Below are positions 8,401 through 14,400 of a stretch of 64,000 nt of DNA, piece after piece. Each line of letters starts with the position of its first letter. The stretch's first letter is position 1. The DNA is from Dugong dugon (taxonomy: Eukaryota > Chordata > Mammalia > Sirenia > Dugongidae). The stretch spans positions 397,001 through 461,000 of the forward strand of contig CM057476.1 in NCBI GenBank assembly GCA_030035585.1, in the 5' to 3' direction. The notes below the pieces were generated by a model that had not been told where the DNA came from, did not search any database, and saw only the letters and a list, made by a program, of their open reading frames with translations. Position numbers and translations under genes: made by a program.

Positions 8401-11400
8401 GAGGACATGTGCCGGATGGCCACCGAGCAGCCCCAGGCACGTGAGCCACTCCACACTGTGGGACCCTGTGCCCCACTGTGAGTGCCCACCCGCGCCTGCC
8501 TGTGCCCAGCCACTTCCCACCAGGATTGGTTTGTCCTGTCCTGTGCTCTGTGAGCTGTAGCCAGCTGGCATGTTTGCTCTACCTCTCCCAGATCTAGCTT
8601 CCAGGGCTTTCGTGCTGCCTGAGCTCTGGTTGTGACAGCTGTCTGACGAATCTTTAAGTTAGTGTCTCTCCTGCTGTCTCCCCAGACCCTGGCCACGTAC
8701 TCAGTGTCGGACGCAGTGGCCACGTACTACATGTACATGAAGTATGTCCACCCCTTCATCTTTGCGCTGTGCACCATCATCCCCATGGAACCCGATGAGG
8801 TCAGTGCCATTGTGGCCTGCTCTCCTGCACTCCACAGACTCTCCTGAAGCCATCGTCACCTAAAGGCACGAGTGGTCACGCACGGTGGTATTGACAGCAG
8901 CTGCAGAACCTTCGTGTGCAGATATCTCTAATGTCCTTTGGGAACCCATAACCATGGGAGGCAAAGCTTATGGCAATTTTTTTTAATTGTAGTGAAAATA
9001 TACAACAGAACAGATGCCAGCTCCACAATTTCTGCATGTACAGCTCAGCGACATTGATTACATTTTTCAAGTTGTGCACTCATTCGCGCTATCCTTTTCC
9101 AGATCATTCCACCACCGATAATGTATCCTCAATGCCCCCTAAGCAAAAACTCACCCTTCCTCCCTCCCTCTCTCCCCACAACCACTAGTCATCTTTGGTT
9201 TCTATATATTTGCCTATTTCATACAAGTAAGATCATACACTATTTGCCCTTTTGTGACTGATGGACTTCGCTCAGCATGACGTTTTCAAGGTTCGTCCAT
9301 GTTGTAGCATGCATCAGGACTTCATTTCTCTTTATGACTGAGTGGTATTATAGCAATTTATCAATAGATTTTCTTTCCTTTTACATCAGAGTCTGGTCTG
9401 ATGCCTTTCTCGTGCTTCTGGGACTTTGCCTGCACGTCAGGGCCTTGGGTGTCAGGTTTGGGAAACTCAGCTTGTTTTGGCTCAGAATCTTCATGCCTCT
9501 TCCCGCCAGGTGCTGCGGAAGGGATCTGGAACTTTGTGTGAGGCCTTGCTGATGGTCCAGGCTTTCCATGCCAACATCATCTTCCCCAACAAGCAAGAGC
9601 AGGAGTTTAACAAGCTGACAGACGATGGCCACGTGCTGGATGCTGAGACCTACGTGGGTGGCCACGTGGAGGCCCTCGAGTCGGGAGTGTTCCGCAGTGA
9701 CATCCCCTGCCGGTTCAGGATGGTGTGCACCTCCCCCCAACCCCGCCCTGGTCCTCAGACTTGTGTCCCCCACCTTTCCCTTTGCTGGGGCCTGGGAGCC
9801 ACAGGAGAGGAGTAAACACAAAGTCCTTTCTCCTCAGTTTCTCCTGGGCCCCCTTGCTGGCTCCATGCTTACCAAGCCTCACCACATATCGCCCTGCCCT
9901 GCCCTCCCTTTCGGGCTTGTATTGGGCACGACTTTGGTTGGTGTTTCCAGGGCCTGCTATGTGTTGCCGATGAGTCCTGGTCCTCCTGGGGCAGGTGGTA
10001 CTAATTCTATCTGGAACATCTGGCATTGCCCGGCGCACAGCAGGTGTTCTGGGCGTGCTGACTGTGGCATAATTTCTGATGTGCTCAGAGGTGGGCTAAC
10101 GCAGCTGAGTTTTTGTTTCATTCGTGTGTCTTTGTTGTGCTAGAACCCTGCTGCCTTCGACTTCCTGCTGCAGCGGGTCGAGAAGACCATGCGCCACGCC
10201 ATTGAGGAGGAGGAGAAGGTACCCATCGAGCAGGTCATCAACTTCCAAGAGGTAAAACTTAAGGCCCAGTGTCTGCATGTTGTTTTGAGGTGAAGAAGCA
10301 AAGGGAGGAGACAGGAAGAGACGGCGTTCTCGTGAGTGACCTCTCAGACTGGCTTCTTTCCATAAAATATGTGGCAGTCCCATGGACACTGAGACAGGGA
10401 ACAGGGTCTTTCTGCCAAGGTGCTTAGGCCAGAGGACAGGGCTTTGGTGTGACTGAGGAGGTGTCCAGTGTTCCTGGCGTAGGAGTGTTGATGGAGGATG
10501 TGCCAGGTGAGCTGGCTCTTGGTTGCACAGTAATGTGGGTGACACAGAAGGGAGAGGTCTTGGGGACTGGTAGTGGGTGCAGGTCCAGGGTGGCAGGCCT
10601 TGGGGACGGGCAGCAGGGGACGCGGGTCCCGGGTGTCTCGAGTCCAGGGTGGCGGGCCCTGGGGACAGACAGTGGGCGCAGGCCTTGAGGATGGGCAGTG
10701 GGTGCAGGTTCACAGTGGTGGGCTGCCATGCCACCTCTGGGTGGACACTCTCCCTGACAGATGGCTGCCATGTCAGGCTGACAGCCACTCTGAGTGCGGG
10801 CTCAGCAGGCACATGTGGAATCACCCGCACGGCTCTTCTCGGAGTTCTCTCCCAGCCCTGATAGCTCTTGTGGGGGAGGCTGCTGCTCCCCATGGATGCA
10901 CCCCTCATCTGGGCCTGTTCTTGTTTGAAGGCACCCATGTCCCTAGAGCCTGGGGTGGCATCTTCATGGCTATCCGACACGATCAGTCCCTTACTTTGGT
11001 CTCTGACTCCGTTATTTCCTCCCCTAAAGGTGTGTGACCAGATCAAGACCAGACTCACCTCCCTGAAAGATGTTCCTAATCGAATTGAGTGTCCCCTTAT
11101 TTACCACCTTGACGTGGGGGCCATGTACCCCAATATCATTCTTACCAACCGCCTACAGGTGAGCTTCCACTGTGCCCAGCAGAGTTGGGATTCTGTCCAT
11201 CCAAAGCCCTAACTCTTCTTCCTCCTCCCTCCTCCTCTCAAGCCCTCTGCCATGGTGGATGAGGCCACCTGTGCTGGTTGTGACTTTAACAAGCCCGGAG
11301 CAAACTGCCAGCGGAAGATGGCCTGGCAGTGGAGGGGCGAGTTCAGTGAGTGCCCGGGGAGGGTACTCTGGGGATGCAGGGTGCAGGGGTGAGTTCAGTG

Positions 11401-14400
11401 AGTGTTGGGGGGACGCAGGATGCAGGGGCTAGTTCAGTGAGTGTTGAGGAGGATGCAGGGTACAGGGGCAAGTTCAGTGAGTGCTGGGGGGACATAGGGT
11501 GCAGGGGTGAGTTCAGTGATTATTGGGGGGACGCAGGGTGCAGGGGCGAGTTCAATGACTGCTGGGGGGACACGGTGCAGGGGCAAGTTCAGTGAGTGTT
11601 GGGGGGACACGGTGCAGGGGCGAATTCAGTGAGTGTGGGGCAGACACAGGGTACGGGGCAAGTTCAGTGAGTGTTGCGGTGGCACGCAGGGTGTAGGGGC
11701 GAATTCAGTGAGTGTTGGGGGGACGCAGGGTGCAGGGACGAGTTCAGTGAGTGTTGGGAGGACACGGTGCAGGGGCGAGTTCAGTGAGCGCCGGGGACAC
11801 GGTGCAGGGGCAGGTTCAATGAGTGTTGGGGTGACACGGTACAAGAGTGAGTTCAGTGAGTCCTGGGGATGCAGGACGCAGGGGTGAGTTCAGTGAGCAC
11901 TGGGGGGATACAGGGGTGAGCTCAGTGAGTGTTGGGGGTATGTATGGTGCAGAGAGGAGTTCAGTGAGTGTTGGGGGAACATAGGGTGCAGGGGCAAGTT
12001 CAGTGTGCACCTGGGAAGGGGGCTCTGGAAGGAAGCAGAGCAAGCCTTTGTTGCAATCCCTTTCGCTCTGCTGCTTCCTTCCCAGTGCCAGCCAGCCGCA
12101 GCGAGTACCACCGCATCCAGCACCAGTTGGAGTCAGAGAAGTTCCCTTCCCTGTTCCCAGAAGGGCCCACCCGGGCGTTTCACGAACTGTCCCGGGAGGA
12201 GCAAGCCAAGTATGAGAAGCGGAGGCTGGCAGGTGAGACTCGTGGCCTTCCATGCACCACATAGCCCCTGGGTAAGGCCTTCCACGTGTCACGTGTCCCT
12301 CAGATGTGGCCTTCCACGTGCTACGTGGCCCCTGGTCATGGCCTTCCATGTGCTGCATGGCCCCCAGACGTCTTCCACGAGCCGTGTGTCCCTGGATGCT
12401 GTGGGGCTTCACAGCTGAGGTCGGCAAAGGCTCAGTGCTCCTGTGGCTGAATCCTAGAAGGGGGCGATGTCGCAGGTGGTTCTCAAACCTTCTCCATGGT
12501 CTCACTGTGTTCCAGATTATTGTCGGAAGGCGTACAAGAAGCTCCATGTCACCCGAGTGGAGCAGCGCCTCACCACAATCTGCCAGCGAGAGAACTCCTT
12601 CTACGTGGACACAGTTCGCGCCTTCCGGGACCGGCGCTATGAGTTCAAAGGGCTGCACAAGGTCAGGCTCAAGACACTGCAGGGTGGACCAGGGAGGTCA
12701 GAGCAGAGCTCAGTTCTGAAACAAGAGACCTTACTTGGATCTGTCTGGACCCTCTTGGCTCCCTCACTGGGGTGCGCTGGTCTAGGCTCTCAGGCTGGGT
12801 GCACACACGGGCAATAAAGACACTGGACTTCTTTTGTTTCTTTAACTTTGAAGAATTAAGGGCAGAAAGGAACAGGCCACAGTCTATCCAACCTGAGGCC
12901 TGTGAAGTGTTCTGAATAATTATTTTTGAAGTAACCGTTTAGAGCAGGGTTAGGAAGTGACAGCTGGGCCATCCATCGGTTTTGTAAATAAAGTTTTATT
13001 GGAACGTAACCACGATGTTGTCTGTGGCTGCATCTGCACTATAGCAGTGTGGTTGAGCAGCTGCCATAGAGACCGTTAATCTACATGCCTGAGACACTGA
13101 CCATTGGCTCTTTAAGAGAAGGTTTGCTGACCTTTGATTTTAGGGAAGAAGGCTATTTGGTCTTTACTATACTATTTTTCAAGTTTTCTGTAGATTTGAA
13201 ACTTGTCAAAATATTAAAAAGTTGGGCCGTTTGTTATGGCGACTGTGACATGAGAAAATGTGTCGGCCAGTCAGCCTCTGTGTGGCCTTCAGGTGTGGAA
13301 GAAAAAGCTGTCTGCAGCAGTTGAGATGGGTGACGCGGCCGAGGTGAAGCGTTGCAAGAACATGGAGATCCTGTATGACTCCCTGCAGCTGGCCCACAAG
13401 TGCATCCTCAACTCCTTCTATGGCTACGTCATGCGCAAGGGGTGTGTGCAGGCAGAGGCCCCCTTCCGGCCTCTGGAGCCGGGCATGTGGGGGGACATGA
13501 TGACCACAAATGGAGTAAATGTACGAGGAAGTGACTGAGGGTTGGGTCAGAGCATGAGGAGGGGTGGGGTGAGAGACTGAAAATTGGTAGTGCTGTTTAC
13601 TGAATTTGGGGTGTTGGAGAAAGCAGTTTGGGGTGAGGCAGGGGCGAGAGGGTGAGGAGAGCAGAAACCAAGCCAACTTTGGGGTTCCTGGGCATGTCAT
13701 TGCTCACACATAGGCTGGGGATGGCAGTGTGTGTTGGGCTGGGGATGGCAGTGTGTGTTGCTGTGACTCTGCGTGTCCTCACTCAGGAGCATGGAGGGGC
13801 TGGGTGGATGCATGGAGCACTGGAACGTGTGGGGGGAGGCGGAAGTCAGGAAAACTGGGGTTAGGAGGTGGGGGGGTGAAAGCCAAGGTGAGGAAGTTCC
13901 TGGAGGGAGACAGGTGAGATCAGGTGTGAATGGTGTCACTGGATATAACAGCCAGGCAGTCATTCGTGACCTTGGAGAGCAGGTTTGCCGGCACAAAGGC
14001 AAGGCCTGGCTAGGTGGGCTGGGGACAGGGGGCTGTGTGGAGGAAGACAGGATGTCTAGGCAGGGATTGTTTGTTTACTTGTTGTTTTAATGACTGCGAC
14101 TAGACCATGCTCAGTGCTCGGGGGGCAGAGTTTGCAAGGGAGAGGCAGGAGATGGCAGAGAGCAGCATCCTGGGGAGCAGGGGGCCAAGGTCCAGTGAGG
14201 GGTGGGGGTACAGTCAGGAAGGACGGGCTCTGTTTTCTCTGAAAGTAGGACATGAGAATGGGCTGAGAGGTTGACAAGGACAGAGCAGGACAAGACAGTA
14301 CTGGGAGAACGGGACCCTCACTTGGAGGTGTGGAAGTTCGGGTGGCTGTGGGTGCCTGCAGGGAGGAAGGCCACGTGCTGTAGGCAGCACCGCACCTCCT

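Follow-up and report, generated by a model that had tools for sequence, protein, structure and literature searches.

How a splice donor is recognized when it stands first in a long row of near-identical copies, and how such a row came about, is the question raised by intron 18 of POLE in Dugong dugon. The gene lies on the + strand of the window, by which we mean the whole stretch of 64,000 nt analyzed here (GCA_030035585.1, contig CM057476.1, positions 397,001 to 461,000; coordinates below are counted from its first letter). The intron opens with a minisatellite whose unit repeats the end of exon 18 together with its donor. We suggest that this array most likely arose by growth from the exon 18/intron 18 junction itself, and that it is probably a tolerated, non-adaptive minisatellite causing low-level unproductive splicing of POLE. 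Beyond the row of donors recognized in the initial annotation of this DNA, the real donor is weak, and four copies in which a CpG has decayed carry donors with better scores.

The minisatellite occupies 11334-12009 (+ strand). Tandem Repeats Finder (TRF) reports a 39-bp unit in 16.8 head-to-tail copies at 11370-12005, which is within the usual size of a minisatellite (about 10-100 bp), and a core search extends the array to 18 tandem cores related to GAGTTCAGTGAGTG (0 to 4 mismatches), which start from 11339 to 11996. The first of these is the authentic exon 18 donor. The initial annotation had described about 17 decoys behind it, about 13 of them good, and this is in agreement with the 17 downstream cores, 13 of which retain TCA|GTGAG: TCA|GTGAGT in 11 copies and TCA|GTGAGC in two. 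The 11 former 9-mers are identical to that of the real donor and range from +52 to +618, so that the true donor is the first of a near-identical row, as had been claimed. The GT itself is retained in 15 of the 17 downstream copies, being weak in copies 5 and 18, and copies 6 and 13 have AT instead. The step had been given as roughly 31-40 bp; the actual spacings are 52 bp for the first and 32-41 bp for the others (in order, 52, 39, 40, 39, 39, 37, 37, 38, 41, 39, 37, 35, 37, 37, 32, 39 and 39 bp). The copies diverge from each other by many substitutions. The 19-mer GGGGCGAGTTCAGTGAGTG has 16 matches with at most three mismatches in the 64-kb window, where shuffles would give 0.01; all lie in the array, corresponding to 16 of the 18 cores, and none was found elsewhere in the window at this threshold. 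A blastn search at word size 7 against the window, in which this array was masked and a second POLE array at 39680-40478 was left unmasked, yielded only weak matches among the 30 best (the best at 14160-14212, E of 0.12; 75-79% over 39-53 bp), with none to the second array among them. The basis of this description is one sequence, that is, a single allele.

The gene model agrees with that of human POLE. Exon translations, which were joined by hand before the comparison, match human POLE chains in the PDB with E values down to 9.2e-277, and tblastn with pieces of the human protein places the exons for residues 111 to 2279 along 2609-41459, with gaps in the map where a human piece is absent. For 35 neighboring exon pairs, the junction passed the identity cut in 26 cases and fell short of it in three, and six pairs yielded no junction; among the three, the donors at 14717 and 18097 were added by eye and that at 17404 was dropped, leaving 28 introns for the comparisons below. 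The exon that we take to be exon 18 in the human numbering lies at 11243-11345 (+ strand; 103 nt) and encodes residues 642-675 plus the first base of codon 676. It follows a short intron 17 (11159-11242, 84 nt, + strand; junction placed by comparison with human POLE) and precedes intron 18 (11346-12085, 740 nt, + strand) and exon 19 (12086-12232, + strand; 147 nt, equal to 49 codons). The exon 18/19 junction divides codon 676 (A|TG) and reads WQWRGEF|M, identical to the human chain at this place, and the coding sequence and the donor of exon 18 are both intact.

The unit had been said to repeat the end of exon 18 together with its 5' splice site. This interpretation is supported by a 20-nt stretch, AGGGGCGAGTTCA|GTGAGTG (13 nt of it coding), in which the junction does not differ from the consensus of copies 2-17. 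The exon end copied into the unit (GTGGAGGGGCGAGTTCA, 11329-11345, + strand) is identical to the unit consensus at 16 of 17 positions, and the copied coding segment encodes WQWRGEF, which is identical in human POLE. Given this identity with human POLE, the simplest view is that the array was copied from the exon; and as the unit includes the exon's conserved coding end, growth of the array from the exon-intron junction is most likely. An origin at this splice site, as proposed in the initial annotation, is therefore still the best reading, given that the 19-mer occurs nowhere else in the window and that the blastn matches outside the array, among the 30 best, are weak. The founding event would have been a tandem duplication that spanned the boundary between exon 18 and intron 18, giving a unit composed of the last ~17 coding bases of exon 18, the donor, and the first ~20 intronic bases. 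If the inside then expanded after this first duplication of exon end and intron start, the flanks of the first and last copies should match. The intronic flank after copy 1 (11353-11378, + strand) does align with that after the last copy, copy 18 (12010-12037, + strand), with a score of 27 in a 40-nt stretch, which was reached by 3 of 2000 shuffles.

The authentic donor TCA|GTGAGTG (11346-11352, + strand) is weak because of the A at −1. Its score with a textbook matrix is 5.35 bits, the fourth lowest of the 28 mapped POLE donors (three are lower); when the matrix is derived from the remaining 27 donors, it is the third lowest (two score below it); and its duplex energy with U1 is −6.8 kcal/mol, with three of the 28 being weaker. 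In nine of the 11 identical downstream 9-mers the U1 energy is slightly better (−7.6), through the following bases. Stronger competitors come from the CpG of the exon-derived arm (GGGGCGAG), which among the 17 copies is TG in five (copies 2, 5, 14, 15, and 16), CA in five, intact in five, and otherwise changed in two. In the TG state, an additional donor arises 9 nt before the copied one. The resulting site is GGG|GTGAGT (9.27 bits, U1 energy of −10.4) in copies 2 (11389-11394), 5 (11507-11512), and 15 (11884-11889), GGG|GTGAGC (7.72 bits) in copy 16 (11916-11921), all on the + strand, and AGA|GTGAGT (6.80 bits) in copy 14. The four GGG sites outscore the real donor by 2.4-3.9 bits, and the window-derived matrix agrees (7.61 for GGG|GTGAGT versus 1.52 for the real donor). 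The site in copy 2, made by a C-to-T change at the unit CpG, is the nearest better-scoring decoy, at +43 nt. When GT sites were counted up to 700 nt into each intron, with the last 60 nt of the intron excluded, 18 downstream sites in intron 18 (2.64 per 100 nt) equaled or exceeded the score of its real donor, more and at a higher density than in any other of the 28 introns; counts of 11 and 10 come next, likewise at weak donors. Over 2500-41500, 238 GT sites reach the score of the real donor, 19 of them in the array region (the real one included) and 31 in the second array.

Two further observations concern these donors. The codons GGC GAG of exon 18 (11336-11341) contain the same CpG (11338-11339), at which the exon retains the C; a synonymous C-to-T change there would put a better-scoring GGG|GTGAGT donor 9 nt inside exon 18. 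The POLE donor at 24903 also has an A at −1 (GCA|GTGAGTT), and a competitor of at least equal score lies 23 nt downstream of it.

The exon extensions that decoy use would produce had been expected to be usually out of frame, which holds for only 7 of the 13 intact TCA decoys (lengths not a multiple of three), yet all 13 read the same in-frame TGA at 11390-11392 (+ strand), codon 691 of the extended exon, whatever their own frame. This TGA and the +43 donor are both explained by one and the same C-to-T change. Splicing at +43 would give an exon of 146 nt and shift the frame, so that translation would stop at codon 733, in exon 19 judging by its position. Of 23 listed sites that score 3 bits or more, the first donor alone gives no stop in the translated stretch (exons 18-21), and use of any of the 13 intact TCA decoys or of the +43 site would introduce a premature stop, as expected of a poison donor. 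By the usual rule, a premature stop with many exon junctions downstream leads to nonsense-mediated decay (NMD). Because many exon junctions follow the stops, NMD of the decoy transcripts is expected; given the stops in the 13 decoys and the frameshift stop at +43, decoy use should therefore feed this pathway.

How often the decoys would be used depends on how donors compete. According to a study on competing donors, the upstream one of two near-equal sites is preferred under exon definition, most clearly in a class that we read as having a short intron before the exon and a long one after it (PMC9225289). POLE exon 18, with 84 nt before and 740 nt after, fits this class. By the rules of that study, position should make the TCA decoys lose to the first donor, while strength could let the +43 site prevail. 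With decoys from copy 14 onward, the remaining intron would be ~240 nt or shorter, which is in the range where the upstream rule turns. If the array is, as we hold probable, a tolerated minisatellite born at the junction, the first donor of this 103-nt exon would stay dominant through exon-defined splicing, which would favor the upstream donor among equal ones, and the decoys would be used at a low level, on the order of a percent, chiefly GGG|GTGAGT at +43 and TCA|GTGAGT at +52. This order of size is taken from the nearest measured case, the second-unit donor of the human ABCA7 repeat, which is used at 2 ± 1%, as we read the word "respectively" in that report (PMC5954066). Transcripts with premature stops would be cleared by NMD, and the load of unproductive splicing may shift with copy number and CpG decay.

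Several points weigh against this account, in its mechanism and in its history. In the donor study, the stronger donor won 86% of all events (PMC9225289), which would predict heavy, not low-level, use of the +43 site. The donors were scored with a textbook matrix, with the 5' end of U1, and with a matrix of only 27 donors; these are simple measures of the site itself that leave splicing enhancers and silencers out. As to the history of the array, when equal stretches of 26 nt are compared, the flank of copy 1 scores 22 with that of copy 18 but also 22 with that of copy 14, and 10-16 with those of the other 15 copies. Because of this tie, flank sharing is weakened as a proof of the order of duplication and supports it only moderately. 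The exon-derived similarity is not significant once the last 9 nt of the exon are removed (reached by 1025 of 2000 shuffles); a longer exon-derived arm was rejected on this ground, and ~17 nt is thus an upper reading of the arm.

Among the alternatives, the one that survives best is that the array grew from the donor and is nevertheless silent, with the first donor used essentially always, aided by exonic enhancers, and nothing measurable resulting. We regard this as a real possibility, though clearly the less likely one. POLE is an essential gene, and the allele is nonetheless present in the sequenced animal; exon 18 has kept its coding sequence and donor, and the upstream preference under exon definition would act in the same direction (PMC9225289). 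The use of the ABCA7 second-unit donor at about 2% argues against complete silence, as do the four copies whose donors lie 2.4-3.9 bits above the real one. In another proposal, CpG decay in the exon-derived arm would keep creating donors able to outcompete the weak real one, so that this species would spend a substantial fraction of its POLE pre-mRNA (more than about 10%) on the +43 and later decoys, and the array would act as a copy-number-dependent dial of POLE dosage. We consider this unlikely.

It is more doubtful still that longer alleles of the array lead to skipping of exon 19, by analogy to ABCA7, in which exon 19 skipping is reported to increase with the length of the variable number tandem repeat (VNTR) (PMC5954066). 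In POLE, skipping of the 147-nt exon 19 would keep the frame, with no stop in the translated exons 18 and 20, and would give a POLE lacking 49 residues. This analogy would have to be drawn from one allele of 0.67 kb with a unit unlike that of ABCA7, whose reported alleles range from about 0.3 to over 10 kb (PMC5954066).

Little also speaks for the decoy row being a selected switch of poison donors that lowers POLE output via decay-coupled splicing, and we rate it as improbable. Stops do follow from each of the 13 intact TCA decoys and from the +43 site, and among copies 2-17 the donor 9-mer shows less divergence than the other non-CpG columns (0.67 versus 2.09 mismatches per column; 269 of 20000 permutations). 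However, the second POLE array at 39680-40478, which is not exon derived, likewise shows its lowest divergence in the TGAGT and G-run block, and our alignment is anchored on the core. Because the second array matches it and the alignment is core anchored, the low divergence of the donor motif is no evidence of function, and selection on this motif was rejected as an explanation.

That an independent G-rich minisatellite merely resembles or abuts the exon end is very unlikely: another POLE minisatellite does carry GTGAGT without exon sequence, but 20 identical nt across the junction, 16 near-matches to the 19-mer versus 0.01 expected, and the moderate flank sharing between the first and last copies disagree with it. 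The least probable explanation, an assembly artefact in the copy number or in the +43 base, draws on the fact that tandem arrays are often misassembled and conflicts with the many substitutions between copies, which are unlike a simple assembly duplication.

In the open-access literature, the only close case of a splice-site-carrying repeat that we found is ABCA7, and of the six titles listed there for a repeat in POLE or in elephants, none deals with one. In human ABCA7, the VNTR of intron 18 has a 25-bp unit that begins with the donor GT; the second-unit donor gives an out-of-frame transcript subject to NMD, and stop-bearing transcripts increase with cycloheximide (PMC5954066). The array there is polymorphic, with about 12 to 427 units, and is associated with Alzheimer's disease (PMC5954066). 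The POLE array agrees with this description in that it stands at the exon end, includes the authentic donor (the first core, at 11339, spans it), and retains donor sequence in downstream units (TCA|GTGAG in 13 and GT in 15 of 17). The donor-including arrangement is therefore less exceptional than the initial annotation implied, since it has been published for human ABCA7 (PMC5954066). The two arrays differ in that the POLE spacing is 32-52 bp, with a unit containing ~17 coding bases, compared with 25 bp in ABCA7, and in that polymorphism and disease association are features of ABCA7, whereas the POLE array is known from one sequence. A coding arm within the unit and CpG-made decoys that outscore the true donor are elements that we did not see described for ABCA7.

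Three other systems are more distant. In human segmental duplications, ~30-bp minisatellites located at exon-intron boundaries alter splicing (PMC2812944). The POLE array is likewise a minisatellite at such a boundary, but the variable repeats there form novel introns in recent paralogs, whereas in POLE an existing intron is filled with donors. The model of Zhuo et al. (2007) for the origin of introns from tandem arrays, in which repeated units also carry splice sites, reportedly requires that the 5' and 3' boundaries of the intron match and both lie within the array. In POLE the last core ends at 12009, 76 nt before the intron end at 12085, so the two boundaries do not both lie in matching units. 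A point variant of human POLE, c.1686+32C>G, is described as retaining 47 bp of intron 15, with a frameshift and predicted NMD, in two compound-heterozygous patients (PMC5972231). It shares with the decoys the gene, the retention of tens of intron bases after an exon, the frameshift, and the predicted NMD, and differs from them in being a disease allele in another intron with no repeat. In human POLE, a shift of tens of bases into an intron therefore matters (PMC5972231).

The second POLE minisatellite (39680-40478) has a 45-bp unit in about 18 copies, and its start lies 58 nt beyond the exon end at 39622. It contains no exon sequence, but 15 of its 17 aligned units have TGTGAGT, and 31 of its GT sites equal or exceed the exon 18 donor in score. 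Eight tandem-array loci fall within mapped POLE introns; six of them (11370, 12243, 15857, 22242, 32771, and 39680) begin no more than 80 nt from a donor, and one of the eight ends within 80 nt of an acceptor. Random placement matched the donor-adjacent starts in 0 of 20000 trials when free and in 94 of 20000 when kept within the own intron, with the 80-nt limit set after the arrays had been seen, overlapping TRF rows merged, and the arrays at 10655, 28957, and 31122 excluded, as their introns are unmapped. Donor-adjacent DNA may thus seed minisatellites in POLE. A run of about 19 GAG trinucleotides at 31122-31177 lies between mapped POLE exons and is presumably intronic. Elsewhere in the window, cysteine-rich open reading frames at 56725-57565 contain the stretches ECQSQCC, ECQSSCC, and DCQTRCC; by eye, they look colipase-like.

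POLE is an essential replication gene whose hypomorphic alleles cause disease in humans, and its dosage matters. If the decoys are used, the array would be a natural experiment on donor competition, in which identical 9-mers are interleaved with better-scoring ones. In that case, the arrangement in ABCA7 would look like a recurring kind of minisatellite birth, and the POLE copies would suggest that CpG loss can raise decoys above the true donor. If, on the other hand, none of them is used, intron 18 would be a strong natural case in which exon definition secures a weak donor although many rivals equal or surpass it.

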